Assembly: GCF_014023125.1 (NCBI RefSeq)
Contig: NZ_CP048914.1
Location: 186,001 to 250,000, forward strand
Length of the DNA stretch: 64,000 nt
DNA from: Candidatus Xianfuyuplasma coldseepsis
GTDB taxonomy: Bacteria; Bacillota_I; Bacilli_A; Izemoplasmatales; Izemoplasmataceae
Reading direction: 5' to 3'
In this document: piece after piece, positions 38,720 to 48,530 of the stretch
Position numbering within the stretch: position 1 is the first letter of the stretch
Layout of the letters: each line of letters starts with the position of its first letter
Program-made: the position numbers and the translations under genes
The notes under the pieces: generated by a model
Seen by the model: only the letters and a program-made list of their open reading frames with translations
Database searches by the model: none
Told to the model about the DNA's origin: nothing

Positions 38720-38795
38720 GGAGGGTTAGCTCAGTAGGGAGAGCACTTGCTTGACGTGCAAGGGGTCGCTGGTTCGAGCCCAGTACTCTCCACCA
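38720..38795 (+). tRNA. tRNA-Val (anticodon GAC)
   Basis: 76 nt with encoded CCA. Acceptor stem GGAGGGT/ACTCTCC, D arm GCTC-AGTAGGGA-GAGC, anticodon stem CTTGC/GCAAG around loop TTGACGT (anticodon GAC), T arm with GGTTCGAGCCC. Its last 13 bases are the shared attachment core repeated through the region downstream. Confidence 0.95.
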
Positions 38796-43159: not shown

Positions 43160-43267
43160 AAACTTGTATCCTTACATAAAACCCCATAACAACACACCTA
43201 AGGTCTGTAAGCCCATTTTAGAAAGGCAAAAGGATACGGGTAAACTTCGGGGTGGGTACTCTCCACT
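43160..43267 (+). repeat. Module junction C: right-end element plus core
   Basis: Right end of module 2: GGATACGG at 43232-43239, GGTGG at 43251-43255, core GTACTCT at 43256-43262, then CCACT instead of CCACC. The CCGTATCC half is absent on the downstream side, so the left end of module 3 is eroded. Confidence 0.75.
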
Positions 43268-43407: not shown

Positions 43408-43878
43408 ATGTCTATTAAAGAATTACGTAAATCATTAGATTTAACACAAAAACAAGTTTCCGAATTGGTGAAAATACCTTTGAGAACATATTTGAATTAT
43501 GAAAATGATGAAACCAAAAAAGGTACTATTAAATATAACTATATTATGGATAAGTTAGAGGAATATGGTTATATTGATGAAGAACACGGATTGTTAACGA
43601 TTGAAAAAATAAAAACAATAGTTTCATCTGTACTATCTAAGTATGAAGCAGAGTACTGTTATTTGTTTGGATCATATGCGAAAGAAACTGCTACAGAAAA
43701 AAGTGATGTTGATTTATTGTTATCATCTTCTGTTACTGGGATGAAGTTCTATGGACTAGTAGAGGAACTTAGAGAGCAACTCAAAAAGAAGGTAGAAGTT
43801 ATCCCAGTTTCTTCATTAGAAGGTAATGTAGAGTTACTTAATGAGATACTAAAGGATGGGATAAAGATATATGGATAA
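43408..43878 (+). CDS. HTH-MNT antitoxin, second copy
   Basis: 156 aa with the same architecture as the module 1 antitoxin: XRE helix-turn-helix (LRKSLDLTQKQVSELVKIPL) then an MNT domain with GSYAKETATEKSDVDLL (about 91-107). The two proteins share layout and motifs but diverge strongly elsewhere, so this is not a recent duplication. It overlaps its toxin gene by 8 bp. Confidence 0.86.
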   Translation: MSIKELRKSLDLTQKQVSELVKIPLRTYLNYENDETKKGTIKYNYIMDKLEEYGYIDEEHGLLTIEKIKTIVSSVLSKYEAEYCYLFGSYAKETATEKSDVDLLLSSSVTGMKFYGLVEELREQLKKKVEVIPVSSLEGNVELLNEILKDGIKIYG

Positions 43879-44206
43879 TAAGAAGAACAATGAGTACTAT
43901 ATTAATAAGATTCTCGTAGATTTAGAATTTTTAATCAAACATACAAAAGGTATATCAAAAGACGAGTTTGGGAATAATGAATTACTACTAGATTCGATTA
44001 TGTTTCGTTTTATTCAAATATCAGAACACATAAAAAAATTATCAATAGCTTTTAGGAATGAACATCCAAATATTCCATGGAGAGATATTATAGGGTTAAG
44101 AAATCGTATTGTACATGAGTATGGGAATGTTGATTTAGAGATCATTTATGATGCTGTTAAAGAGGATATTTATATTATTGAAAAGCTATTTAGATCAATT
44201 GATTAA
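43871..44206 (+). CDS. HEPN toxin, second copy
   Basis: 111 aa HEPN/DUF86-type protein with IPWRDIIGLRNRIVHEYGNV, giving the Rx4HxY motif RNRIVHEY. Predicted RNase controlled by the preceding MNT protein. Sole cargo of module 3 together with it. Confidence 0.86.
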   Translation: MDNKKNNEYYINKILVDLEFLIKHTKGISKDEFGNNELLLDSIMFRFIQISEHIKKLSIAFRNEHPNIPWRDIIGLRNRIVHEYGNVDLEIIYDAVKEDIYIIEKLFRSID

Positions 44207-44240: not shown

Positions 44241-44332
44241 GGATACGAGGTAATTTGGTGTAGACACTCTCCACCATTATGAGTCGCGACTTTACTTCGG
44301 GGACAATACTCTCCACCATTTCAGTTTGCATC
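44241..44332 (+). repeat. Module junctions D1 and D2, 42 bp apart
   Basis: D1 (44241-44275) is a degenerate right end: GGATACG, then ACACTCT and CCACC. D2 (44306-44317) is ATACTCT and CCACC followed by CAGTTTGCATC, the same left-end start as after junction E. Between them lies a 42-bp stretch with the palindrome AGTCGCGACT, too short for a gene. The remainder of 44333-44629 holds a decayed hairpin, the left-end box at 44427-44450 and a -10 (TATAAT, 44609-44614). Confidence 0.7.
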
Positions 44333-44629: not shown

Positions 44630-45250
44630 ATGAAGAAATATTGTAAACATTGTATATATGAGACAATAATGCATGGTGTAGTTACATTTCGTCAAGGACA
44701 ACAAATATTTTTAGAGGGTTCTTCTTTAACAAGTGTTTATCGTATACGAAAGGGTCTTGTAAAAATCAATCGGATTCATCACAGTGGTGATGAAAAGATT
44801 TTTGATATTTTAGGACCCGATGACTACATAGCACTTCTCGCGGTGCTACAAGGTAAGAATGAGTATGTAGCTAGTGCAATCGCATTAACTGAAGTTACAG
44901 TAACTCAAATGAGTACATCAGATGTCCTCCAAGCTTATCAGTCCAACAATATTTTTCAAGCAACCTGTTTACAGTGTGCTGTAACAAGATCTACGATGTT
45001 TCAAGATAAATTGTTTCACACCACAAATATTGATATTGAAGAAAAAATACTCGCAACTTTGCAACTCCTAGCTAAAAAATTTGGTACTATTGAAAAGGGG
45101 AGCGTCTTACTCAAACTTCCATTTACCAAAACAGTTTTAGCAAGTATTGTTGGCATTCGAAGAGAAACACTATCTAGAAAATTATCTGATATGCAACATA
45201 AAAATATTATTCAAGTTGACAAAAACATTTATAAATTTGATCGTTTGTGA
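44630..45250 (+). CDS. CRP/FNR-family regulator with two CxxC pairs
   Basis: 206 aa. Cyclic-nucleotide-binding-like barrel (about 17-115), dimer helix and C-terminal winged helix (VLASIVGIRRETLSRKLSDM). Cysteines at 5/8 (CKHC) and 113/116 (CLQC) could bind a metal or Fe-S cluster; this spacing is not the exact FNR pattern. The E-x2-SR recognition helix predicts a TGTGA/TTGAT-type site. A TGTGA-N6-TCACA palindrome lies across its stop codon, in front of the hemerythrin gene. Likely senses oxygen or nitric oxide for the genes downstream. Confidence 0.82.
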   Translation: MKKYCKHCIYETIMHGVVTFRQGQQIFLEGSSLTSVYRIRKGLVKINRIHHSGDEKIFDILGPDDYIALLAVLQGKNEYVASAIALTEVTVTQMSTSDVLQAYQSNNIFQATCLQCAVTRSTMFQDKLFHTTNIDIEEKILATLQLLAKKFGTIEKGSVLLKLPFTKTVLASIVGIRRETLSRKLSDMQHKNIIQVDKNIYKFDRL

Positions 45251-45289
45251 TTTCAATCACAGACGATTTTTTATTTTCATGAGATACTA
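45245..45289 (+). promoter_or_regulatory. FNR/CRP-type palindrome and promoter; also terminator-like
   Basis: TGTGATTTCAATCACA at 45245-45260 is a perfect TGTGA-N6-TCACA site. A -10 TACTAT at 45284-45289 places its centre about 41-43 bases upstream of the expected start, the class II activator position. The same bases form a 10-pair hairpin (from 45241) followed by ATTTTTTATTTT, so it may also end the regulator's transcript. The regulator's stop codon lies inside it. Confidence 0.7.
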
Positions 45290-45314
45290 TACCTGAAAAC
45301 AAGGAGGTATCACA

Positions 45315-46514
45315 ATGAGTGAATTAATAAACAATAGACAAGAGCAGTTAAAAGCAATTATAAAACAAATCCATAATGGGTTACCACTAGATCAAGCTAA
45401 ATCAATCTTTAAAGAGCAGTTTGGTACGGTTACTACCGAAGAAATCACGTCAATGGAGCATTCCCTCATTGAAGAAGGAATGGACATCGCAGAAGTTCAA
45501 AAATTATGTGATGTACACGCTGCTGTGTTTGATGGGGCGATTTCAGATATCCATAAAGCACAAGATATTACGGACATTCCTGGTCATCCGGCGCAGGTTT
45601 TACGTGAGGAAAACGACCAAATTCAAACCGTATTAGAAGTTGAAATCAAGCCATATCTAGACAAATTAGATAAAACGTCAATTCTGATGCTTTCCATTGG
45701 TTTTGAGCGTTTAAGTGAAATTAACAATCACTACACACGAAAGGAAAATCTGTTCTTCCCAGGCTTAGAAAAAAGAGGTGTTACATCGATTCCAAAAGTA
45801 ATGTGGGGTGTTGATAATGAAATACGTTTAGCTATTAAAAATGTTCTCTCACAATTACGTTCTACTCAACGAATAGATGATAATGAACTCCAGCTCTTAA
45901 TGAAATCAACCGTTTCACGTGTAGAGGACATGATTGTTAAAGAAAACAATATCCTTTTACCGTTATTATCTGACACACTTTCTTTGTATGATTGGATTTT
46001 AGCTGATGAAGGCTCTGAAGAAATTGGTTACTTTTTGGAAAAACCTAGTACTTCCTGGAAACAAATCTCAGTGAAACCCGTTCCTGAACAAGACACAAAC
46101 ACAGAAATTCAATCCGTTCAATTTGATGCCGGAGAGCTGTTACCCCAGGAATTAAATGCCATTCTAAATACCGTTCCATTTGACATGACCTTCATTGATA
46201 AAGATGGACACGTTAAATACTTTACTCAAGGTAAAGAACGAATCTTTGATCGACCTAAAACAATCCTTGGTCGACACGTCAATATGTGTCACCCACCACA
46301 AAGTGTTCATATCGTAGATGCTATCGTAAACAGTTTTAAAGATGGCTCAAAGGACCAAGAAGATTTTTGGATTGATTTCCACAAGATGTTTGTCCACATA
46401 CGATATTATGCAATACGTGACAAAAACGGTGAATACTTAGGCACACTTGAAGTCACGCAAGATGTTAAACCAATTCGGGAATTACAAGGTGAGAAACGAT
46501 TGATGGATCAATGA
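45315..46514 (+). CDS. DUF438-hemerythrin-PAS protein
   Basis: 399 aa. DUF438 (about 8-75: LCDVHAAVFDGAI), hemerythrin-like HHE region (about 88-235: NNHYTRKENLFFPGLEKRG, DMIVKENNILLPLL) and a C-terminal PAS domain (280-390) with MCHPPQSVHIV. Hemerythrin domains bind a di-iron centre reacting with oxygen or nitric oxide; PAS here probably senses a ligand. First gene of an operon after the FNR-type site, with AGGAGGT before the ATG. Confidence 0.85.
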   Translation: MSELINNRQEQLKAIIKQIHNGLPLDQAKSIFKEQFGTVTTEEITSMEHSLIEEGMDIAEVQKLCDVHAAVFDGAISDIHKAQDITDIPGHPAQVLREENDQIQTVLEVEIKPYLDKLDKTSILMLSIGFERLSEINNHYTRKENLFFPGLEKRGVTSIPKVMWGVDNEIRLAIKNVLSQLRSTQRIDDNELQLLMKSTVSRVEDMIVKENNILLPLLSDTLSLYDWILADEGSEEIGYFLEKPSTSWKQISVKPVPEQDTNTEIQSVQFDAGELLPQELNAILNTVPFDMTFIDKDGHVKYFTQGKERIFDRPKTILGRHVNMCHPPQSVHIVDAIVNSFKDGSKDQEDFWIDFHKMFVHIRYYAIRDKNGEYLGTLEVTQDVKPIRELQGEKRLMDQ

Positions 46515-46855
46515 GAGAACTCTGGATTTTATTGGGATTACTTTCGATGGGATTGGGGATTATTGGGATTGTTCTACCAATCTTACCGACTACTCCATTC
46601 TTCTTGGTGACAGCATATTCATTCACAAGAGGGTCTGACCGCTTTTCCAACTGGTTTCATAATATCCCACTTGTTCAAAAACACCTTACATCCCTGGCGA
46701 TGACAAAACGTAAAAAATGGACACTTAACATTGCTGTTGATACAATTCTCATCACATACTTTTTTCTGTTCGACACCACGGTGGTAAGAATCACACTGAT
46801 TGCATTGATTCTTATAAAACACATTGTTTTCTTTAAATACGTGAAAACGGAATAA
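46511..46855 (+). CDS. ybaN: YbaN-family (DUF454) membrane protein
   Basis: 114 aa, membrane helices near 5-35 and 75-108. ILPTTPFFLVTAYSFTRGSD and the following FSNWFHN are the DUF454 signature. Overlaps the previous gene by 4 bp. Function unknown; often seen beside hemerythrin or hybrid-cluster genes. Confidence 0.85.
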   Translation: MRELWILLGLLSMGLGIIGIVLPILPTTPFFLVTAYSFTRGSDRFSNWFHNIPLVQKHLTSLAMTKRKKWTLNIAVDTILITYFFLFDTTVVRITLIALILIKHIVFFKYVKTE

Positions 46856-46878: not shown

Positions 46879-48063
46879 ATGGAACTCTTAAAGAATCAAG
46901 AAAAAATCATCGCTATACACAATTTCATGATGGAACTAGAAGACCGCAATCATTCTTTAACCAAGCCAGAAATTTACCGCAAATACGAATCCGTTTTATC
47001 AGAAATTACTCCAATTGATATCTTTTTCTTGCCAATGTACCAAAACAATACTTCATTCTCTATTGATGACATTAAGGAAACCGCTGGTAAATTTGTTAAT
47101 GTCTTTTATCATGGACTAGAACAACATCAACCATCATCCTATGATTCTAATTTGTTAATCTATTTACTTCGAGAAAATGATGCTATTGAAAAGCACCTAA
47201 ATAAAATAAAGCCCTATTTTAAGAGAAGTGAAATATTAGAACACAAAGAAGAAATTTTGACAACAATTGAACAATGCATGCAGTTTGAACGTAAGTTTCT
47301 CAAACGTGAAATGATATTATTCTCTGTATTAGAACACCATCTCCCTACAACAAAACCGTTAGAAGTATTGTGGTCGCTACATGATGATGCAAGATCTACA
47401 CTAAAACTTTTATTACAGGAATTAAGACAACAACAACCCGATATCACAAGTCTTATATTCCTCATAGGTGATTACTATAATTTAATATATGGTATTAATA
47501 CAAAAGAGAAATTAATTCTATTTCCTGTAGCGAACCAAGTACTGTCAACCGAAGAAAAACAGAACATTTTTGAAGAATCAAAAGAATATGGTTATGTATT
47601 TATCGATGACATTCCTAAACCAAGTAGTGATACAAATAATGATGTTATTTTAGATGGTTTTATCAAGACATCAACCGGTGAATTATCGATACAAGAGTTC
47701 GATGGAATCATGAGATATATTCCGATTGATATCACGTTTGTCGACAAGGACGACAAAGTACGATATTTCAACAATCGCAAGGAACGTCACTTCCCTCGTA
47801 ATCCTAGCATAATTGGTCGCTTAGTTAAACACTGTCACCCACCAAAAAGCGTTCATATCGTTGAACAAATCGTAACAGCATTCAAAAAAGGTGACAAAGA
47901 TATCGCAGAATTTTGGATCACATTTAATAACATGTTCTTGTATATTACCTATTATGCTGTTCGATTAAAAAAGGGTGAATATCTAGGAACACTTGAAGTA
48001 TCACAAGACGTCACTCGTATTAGAACTTTAGAAGGACAACAACGCCTACTAGACTGGGCATAA
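46879..48063 (+). CDS. Divergent hemerythrin/PAS paralogue
   Basis: 394 aa. The C-terminal PAS region (about 285-390) closely parallels that of the 45315 protein, including HCHPPKSVHIV, FWI and YLGTLEVSQDV. The N-terminal 270 residues are helical and only weakly similar, with few of the expected hemerythrin histidines (EHHLP, LHDDAR). It may have lost iron binding and act as a partner or sensor. Confidence 0.72.
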   Translation: MELLKNQEKIIAIHNFMMELEDRNHSLTKPEIYRKYESVLSEITPIDIFFLPMYQNNTSFSIDDIKETAGKFVNVFYHGLEQHQPSSYDSNLLIYLLRENDAIEKHLNKIKPYFKRSEILEHKEEILTTIEQCMQFERKFLKREMILFSVLEHHLPTTKPLEVLWSLHDDARSTLKLLLQELRQQQPDITSLIFLIGDYYNLIYGINTKEKLILFPVANQVLSTEEKQNIFEESKEYGYVFIDDIPKPSSDTNNDVILDGFIKTSTGELSIQEFDGIMRYIPIDITFVDKDDKVRYFNNRKERHFPRNPSIIGRLVKHCHPPKSVHIVEQIVTAFKKGDKDIAEFWITFNNMFLYITYYAVRLKKGEYLGTLEVSQDVTRIRTLEGQQRLLDWA

Positions 48064-48080: not shown

Positions 48081-48404
48081 ATGATAGAAACAGTTTATAA
48101 TTTATACCAAGGGAATGAAAAAAAGATTGAAAAATTAGTAATGAAGGAAAATGGGCAGTATATTCATATGGTGTTCCCAAAAGGTGAGGGATTACCAACT
48201 CACATGTCCAACGCTGAATTATTTATGACAGTTTTACAAGGCACTTTAACGCTTGGTCTTAACGATTTAAATACCAACAAATACACTCTAGGTACCATGC
48301 TTAATATCCCGTATCAATCAAAAATGTATGTTCGCAATGAAGATGAGGATATTTTAGAGTTGCTTGTGATAAAGATTGTGCCTGAAGGTAACGAAAAAAT
48401 ATAG
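48081..48404 (+). CDS. Small cupin protein
   Basis: 107 aa single cupin barrel: IHMVFPKGEGLPTHMSNAE and VLQGTLTLGLND, with a reduced metal-ligand set (one clear His). Last gene of module 4. Cupins of this size accompany DUF438/YbaN genes in Firmicutes; role unknown. Confidence 0.75.
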   Translation: MIETVYNLYQGNEKKIEKLVMKENGQYIHMVFPKGEGLPTHMSNAELFMTVLQGTLTLGLNDLNTNKYTLGTMLNIPYQSKMYVRNEDEDILELLVIKIVPEGNEKI

Positions 48405-48410
48405 ATTAAA

Positions 48411-48530
48411 TCAGTACCCAAAATCAAAATCCCGAATCAGCACACTTATAAACCCGTAACCCCATTTTGAAAACCGATTTGATGCGGGTATACTTCGGGG
48501 TGGGTACTCTCCACCATTTCAGTTTGCATC
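48411..48530 (+). repeat. Module junction E: right-end element plus core
   Basis: Right end of module 4: GATGCGG (48481-48487), GGTGG (48499-48503), core GTACTCT (48504-48510), CCACC (48511-48515), then CAGTTTGCATC. GATGC pairs with GCATC where junction B has GGATAC/GTATCC, a paired change that preserves the outer inverted repeat. Confidence 0.8.

Follow-up and report, generated by a model that had tools for sequence, protein, structure and literature searches.

A predicted CRP-type operator that shares its bases with a regulator stop codon and a terminator-like hairpin upstream of a DUF438-hemerythrin operon in Izemoplasmatales

What does a palindrome do that takes in the last codon of a CRP/FNR-family regulator gene, looks like the binding site of such a regulator, looks equally like an intrinsic terminator, and lies directly upstream of a hemerythrin operon? 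The locus that raises this question is part of a 64,000-nucleotide stretch, referred to as the window throughout, of the genome of Xianfuyuplasma coldseepsis zrk13, which is described as a wall-less, cold-seep anaerobe available in culture and belonging to the order-level group Izemoplasmatales (PMC8397711). Its features are as follows, with the extent of the operon inferred from gene spacing:

44630-45250, + strand: CRP/FNR-family regulator gene, 206 aa (Pfam cNMP_binding and HTH_Crp_2)
45239-45278, + strand: terminator-like hairpin with T-rich tail (stem-loop 45239-45268)
45246-45261, no strand assigned: candidate operator TGTGA-N6-TCACA, exact in 18 of 18 orthologous loci
45248-45250, + strand: regulator stop codon TGA, within the first half-site of the operator
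45283-45288, + strand: predicted -10 element GATACT, 21 nt past the operator, whose centre is then at -41.5 (class II; the same position recurs across 21 promoters)
45303-45308, + strand: Shine-Dalgarno sequence GGAGGT
45315-46514, + strand: first target gene, DUF438-hemerythrin-PAS protein, 399 aa (Pfam PF04282, PF01814, PF13596)
46511-46855, + strand: DUF454 membrane protein, overlapping the first target gene by 4 nt
46879-48063, + strand: second hemerythrin-PAS protein, without DUF438
48081-48404, + strand: small cupin-like protein (below the Pfam cut-off, 20.8 vs 27.2 bits), likely end of the operon

The palindrome and the promoter behind it

The first-pass annotation of this DNA had proposed an FNR/CRP-type site spanning the end of the CRP/FNR gene, at class II distance from the -10 element of the hemerythrin operon. 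The site is indeed there: the sequence at 45246-45261 is TGTGATTTCAATCACA and contains the regulator's TGA. The exact motif TGTGA-N6-TCACA occurs five times in the genome (a single contig of 1,958,905 bases), the other four occurrences being within open reading frames, and the 16-mer given in the annotation is not rare if mismatches are allowed (4 matches with up to 3 mismatches, 1.92 expected). What lifts the site above chance is its conservation at orthologous gene ends. The exact motif is found at 18 of 18 of these, compared to 1 of 36,000 shuffled 150-nt zones, and is absent from the remaining 56,777 bases of these 18 loci. All ten half-site bases are invariant, and, measured from the end of the regulator gene, the site starts anywhere from 10 nt before to 36 nt beyond it.

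The spacing to the promoter is conserved as well. We aligned 21 promoters on their sites, namely the 18 at regulator gene ends and three upstream of hcp genes, and found a mean match to TATAAT of 4.24 of 6 positions 21 nt past the site; 2000 shuffles gave at most 3.43 at any distance. At 20-22 nt, 17 of the 21 promoters match in at least 5 of 6 positions (1.6 expected), the remainder being the window's GATACT (4), L019 (3) and two hcp promoters (4). The best hexamer lies 20-22 nt downstream of the site in 17 of 18 loci; the exception, L015, has it at 26 nt, and another hexamer that matches in 5 of 6 positions at 21 nt. A hexamer at -12 to -7 places the operator centre at -41.5, as expected for class II promoters, this position being read from the -10 profile rather than from a mapped start. 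The proposed class II distance is thus borne out by the profile, although the window's own element matches in only 4 of 6 positions. No sigma-70 hexamer pair is listed on the + strand between operator and gene start of the window's locus.

Genome-wide, there are 84 other sites with at most one mismatch (86 records were fetched, including two duplicates from overlapping stretches), of which 6 are outside open reading frames of 100 aa or more. Sites of the TGTGA-N6-TCACA type number 85, as opposed to 43 for the reversed pattern, but since nearly all of them are within coding sequence, we do not read this excess as a regulon. The only one with a -10-like hexamer of 5 of 6 matches at 20-22 nt is L103, where the hexamer is inside the gene that starts at the site, and we rejected it as a further regulon member. 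The neighbouring operon is apparently the one convincing class II target predicted in this genome.

The regulator and its occurrence in the order

The regulator belongs to the CRP/FNR superfamily by its Pfam domains, which score above the cut-offs, and by its CRP fold in an AlphaFold model (mean pLDDT 81.9), whose best fold matches in the PDB are chains of CRP, GlxR and NtcA. Its recognition helix reads RRETLSR, and it has four cysteines in two CxxC arrangements (5, 8 and 113, 116); residues 1-8, including two of these cysteines, have a pLDDT below 50. In a 12-row alignment of orthologs, R178, E179, R183 and all four cysteines are invariant (12 of 12). In the CRP/FNR recognition code as given by Rodionov et al. 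(PMC1274295), R180 and E181 pair with G3 and A6, and a helix of this type is expected to recognise a TGTGA motif; matching R178 and E179 to these positions by eye, we find this R/E pair in 12 of 12 regulators and the exact TGTGA motif in 18 of 18 loci, which points to CRP-like specificity.

Assignment to a known subfamily is less straightforward. FNR proper, of the E. coli type, was rejected (51 bits with the curated FNR model, cut-off 228), as was the Bacillus type of Fnr, since the chain stops a few residues past the wing of the HTH domain and has no cysteine there. A connection to HcpR is suggested by hcp, the gene that HcpR controls: the exact site, together with a -10 element, precedes all four recoverable hcp genes in regulator-bearing genomes, namely those of G001, G019, G033 and G012, in the last of which it is the site at the regulator end, shared by the two genes (the hcp gene of G033 is truncated by the contig end). 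Judging by these sites, the regulator would work like HcpR, while the four conserved cysteines speak against placing it there. They resemble those of FNR-type sensors, and we assign the regulator to neither HcpR nor FNR. The signal is probably O2, NO or redox state, perceived via these cysteines. In the window's genome, no hcp gene was found. In another, G027 (L057-L060), hcp is apparently broken into pieces with stops and its upstream site is down to one mismatch.

Orthologs of the regulator were found in 18 of 90 genomes of the order, representing 8 of 29 genera and counting the window's own genome; a 106-aa fragment in G013 (L052) was excluded from this set. The bearers are mostly sediment bacteria related to mycoplasmas, and those with names include Izemoplasmatales and Izimaplasma assemblies. 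The site was present in all 11 named relatives that we checked (among L074-L085), which are largely the same genomes as the 18 and are not counted again. Wider searches gave the regulator in 7 of 392 genomes of the phylum at E 1e-35, all within the order, and in 14 of 395 genomes of the class at E 1e-30, one of them outside the order (G103); this last match lacks the N-terminal stretch, and its locus has no site with one mismatch or less.

Across genomes, the presence of the site tracks the adjacent regulator. The gene downstream of the regulator encodes a DUF438-hemerythrin-PAS protein in 17 of the 18 loci, all 17 with the site 60-73 nt before the start codon, and hcp in the remaining one (G012). 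DUF438 matches were also obtained in 30 genomes that lack the regulator. Nine of these (fragments or weaker matches) were left aside, and the 21 homologs examined, one of which belongs to the window's own genus, had no site in the 300 nt upstream (best 2-4 mismatches). G003, of the window's own genus, has kept the DUF438 gene (L176, L220), with one in-frame TAA in the match, and has neither regulator nor operator. Upstream of the regulator itself, the 250 nt before 16 regulator genes contain no match with 0 or 1 mismatch that could serve autoregulation (best 2 to 4 mismatches).

Taken together, the conservation of the site, its spacing to the -10 element, its absence where the regulator is absent, the sites before hcp and the fit of the recognition helix make it very probable that the palindrome serves a dedicated activator as its operator.

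Hairpin, stop codon and insulation of the target

The annotation had further held that the same bases form a terminator-like hairpin, which we confirm. The stem-loop at 45239-45268 has a 13-bp stem, of which the operator palindrome is the inner part, and a 4-nt loop, and is followed by TTTTATTTTC. The RNA fold of 45225-45285 has an energy of -16.6 kcal/mol (z -3.6), with 2 of 200 shuffles as good. Terminator-like ends occur at 12 of the window's 61 non-overlapping open reading frames of at least 100 aa, and that of the regulator has the lowest stem energy (-15.3 kcal/mol). With a G+C-bearing stem and a subsequent T run, the element has the form of an intrinsic terminator.

That regulator stop, operator and terminator are compressed onto shared bases, as also proposed, is true of the window's locus and not a conserved rule. 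The regulators fall into two families, the window's with seven loci and a sister family with eleven. All loci of the former (7 of 7) have a long stem with a T-rich tail, as opposed to 2 of 11 of the latter, leaving nine of the 18 loci with an operator that lacks the terminator form. The operator is thus universal among the orthologs found, and the terminator form mainly a trait of the window's family. The stop codon lies within the site in 12 of 18 loci, in two phases: the window's family has it as the TGA of the half-site in six of its seven loci (offset -5), the sister family as a TGA or TAA of the spacer in 6 of 11 (offset -10). It is outside in the other six (offsets 0, 1, 9, 9, 14 and 36). 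These three states require four changes on the tree of 17 regulators, from which L019 was excluded. Given these changes and the loci with an outside stop, the overlap arose repeatedly and is dispensable, reflecting tight packing rather than a fixed requirement.

Does the hairpin act as a terminator, or does a palindromic operator in A+T-rich DNA always look like one? The latter alternative, in which hairpin and T-run would have no role in termination, agrees with the nine loci that have the operator without the terminator form. The outer-stem pairs are held through different pair types in the seven loci of the window's family, and the second outer pair, T-A or G-C, is kept in all seven (shuffled partners give 3.5); yet this excess is modest at some positions and absent at position 6 (5 vs 5.1) and position 7 (6 vs 6.0), the 11 sister loci show little or none of it, and pairing in the outer stem may also serve the DNA operator by aiding protein binding. 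Against this stands that all seven loci of the window's family combine the stem with a T-rich tail, and that L016 and L019 of this family have a one-base bulge in the stem, which breaks the symmetry of the DNA and keeps the RNA hairpin. Further, operators beside a separate terminator stay unextended. In G001, such a terminator lies between the upstream gene and the hcp operator, whose hairpin is just 5 bp, and at the DUF438 locus of G069 one lies ahead of the operator, whose hairpin is 5-6 bp. The hcp sites of G019 and G033, by comparison, are 25-30 nt past another gene and have a stem of 12-13 bp with a T-rich tail. The two natural controls, G001 and G069, fit a real terminator, and we consider it unlikely that the hairpin has no such role.

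At L098 and L099, an hcp operator likewise has the form of a terminator-like hairpin; the gene ahead of it is a different one, MerR-like by eye.

In the sister family, folding of the predicted transcripts suggests another form of insulation. In seven loci (L009, L013, L015, L048-L051), the Shine-Dalgarno sequence is 0-6% unpaired in the read-through RNA and 26-68% unpaired in RNA started at the promoter, because a stretch complementary to it sits between the operator and the -10 element and is part of the read-through RNA only. When this stretch was shuffled, no more than 1% of cases came up to the observed value for six loci, and 8% for L015. The opening energy of the ribosome-binding site agrees for six of the seven (0 to 5 of 200 shuffles) and fails for L051 (25 of 200), which has its own terminator. 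Hiding of the ribosome-binding site is suggestive only for L012 (15 of 200) and for the window's locus (16 of 200), and no such signal was seen in the folded read-through RNA of L017; L012 and L017 have neither a terminator nor a significant hairpin of this kind. Among the clear cases, the two forms do not coincide. The split between the families follows the tree (3 changes), so that few independent events stand behind it.

We therefore favour, at a probability of roughly 0.75, the interpretation that the palindrome is the operator of the adjacent regulator, serves class II activation of the DUF438-hemerythrin operon, and is part of an arrangement that insulates the target from the regulator's transcript with either a terminator or a hairpin over the ribosome-binding site. 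A dimer of the regulator would bind at the end of its own gene and recruit polymerase from the class II position to a promoter that has no recognisable -35 element. Since the two genes follow each other head to tail within 64 nt, the target needs protection against transcripts that come from its regulator's gene. In the window's family, extension of the operator palindrome would have produced an intrinsic terminator at which the regulator mRNA ends, and without activation the operon would stay silent, since transcription of the regulator would end there; in most of the sister loci that lack a terminator, a hairpin formed only in read-through RNA would hide the target's ribosome-binding site. 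The same lack of space would have brought the stop codon into the operator. The support comes from conservation, spacing, co-occurrence with the regulator, the helix code and the hairpins, and from these we infer binding, signal, termination and insulation.

A bolder extension, which we regard as improbable, is that the bound regulator blocks polymerase on its own gene so that the stop codon goes uncopied, yielding non-stop mRNA that is subject to tmRNA tagging and destruction, the unbound palindrome acting as an RNA terminator. In 17 of the 18 loci, L051 being the exception, a polymerase halted about 20 nt short of the site would, by the geometry of the offsets, not yet have copied the stop. 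The window's genome encodes a tmRNA, and roadblocks by site-bound regulators are described in PMC10310618 and PMC6237814. If so, one 30-base element would combine activator site, stop codon, terminator and autoregulatory roadblock, and full-length regulator would be made only while the operator is free.

That the palindrome is only the Rho-independent terminator of the regulator gene, and resembles a CRP site by chance, is very improbable: the strong hairpin with its T-rich tail would fit, but the half-site bases are invariant even at the nine loci without terminator form, the spacing to the -10 element is fixed, and the site recurs before hcp and is missing before DUF438 genes that lack the regulator. 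Just as hard to credit is use of the site by another CRP/FNR protein of the cell, for although the genome encodes two more members, these paralogs differ at the specificity positions (recognition helices TPETISR and KRPSLSR), and site presence follows the adjacent regulator across genomes.

Related systems and the surroundings of the module

The proposed operator of the adjacent regulator invites comparison with lacI, whose operator O3 is located near the 3' end of the gene. In both cases regulator gene and target follow each other on the same strand, with an operator at or near the regulator's 3' end; LacI, however, is a repressor, whereas class II activation is proposed here. SsrA-tagged LacI was reportedly described by Abo et al. 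in 2000. Trans-translation of LacI is reviewed in PMC3985003, the relevant part of which is without operator detail.

Closer in function are class II CRP/FNR promoters and HcpR of the Desulfovibrio type, whose sites are given as wTGTGAnnnnnnTCACAw and whose regulons often include hemerythrin-like genes (PMC1274295). The half-site, the -41.5 position and the hcp target in relatives are the same, but the operator here lies within the end of the regulator gene, and the regulator has four conserved cysteines, whereas HcpR-type proteins are described as lacking the FNR cysteine motif (PMC1274295). With Bacillus Fnr, the regulator shares the presence of cysteines in a CRP-fold protein (those of Bacillus Fnr being Fe-S cysteines) and the CRP-like motif reported for Crp2/Fnr orthologs (PMC1274295); the ligand cysteines of Bacillus Fnr are placed in a C-terminal extension (PMC3520743), which is absent from this regulator.

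The controller protein C.Kpn2I also has a site in its own reading frame and controls the neighbouring promoter (PMC6237814). In the account given there, unlike here, the frame contains the site in its first part or its middle, a terminator is not involved and the roadblock was shown (PMC6237814). For the sister loci, a parallel to the predicted hiding of the ribosome-binding site is found in T4 gene e and I-TevI, where long upstream transcripts are described as hiding it and a promoter within the hairpin as yielding free RNA (PMC3014915, PMC2988022). There, insulation is part of the temporal control of a phage, whereas the prediction made here concerns a regulator and its target in bacteria. 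Among open-licence papers, a limited search returned none on DUF438 with hemerythrin, and nothing relevant on an operator or binding site that overlaps a terminator and a stop codon.

If our interpretation is correct, the locus is a small, self-contained module of regulator and target, apparently with a single target in this genome. Few regulators have been characterised in the lineage, which stands between Firmicutes and Mollicutes. The locus and its relatives would illustrate two ways of insulating a head-to-tail pair: the operator is extended to a terminator, or a hairpin that forms only in read-through RNA covers the ribosome-binding site. The 18 loci also provide a natural series for asking whether one stretch of bases can evolve to serve as operator in DNA and as terminator in RNA.

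The surroundings of the module have features of their own. A dispersed intergenic repeat (ACTTCGGGG...TACTCTCCACCATTTCAGTTTGCATC) is found at 38785, 40971, 43212-43266, 44251-44332 and 48460-48530, and copies about 4.2 kb apart flank the regulator-hemerythrin module on both sides; the repeat may mark the boundaries of an insertion or cassette. Upstream of the regulator, at 43408-44206, are overlapping genes, by eye for a nucleotidyltransferase with an HTH and for a HEPN/DUF86-like protein, a pair that is possibly a HEPN-MNT toxin-antitoxin system.
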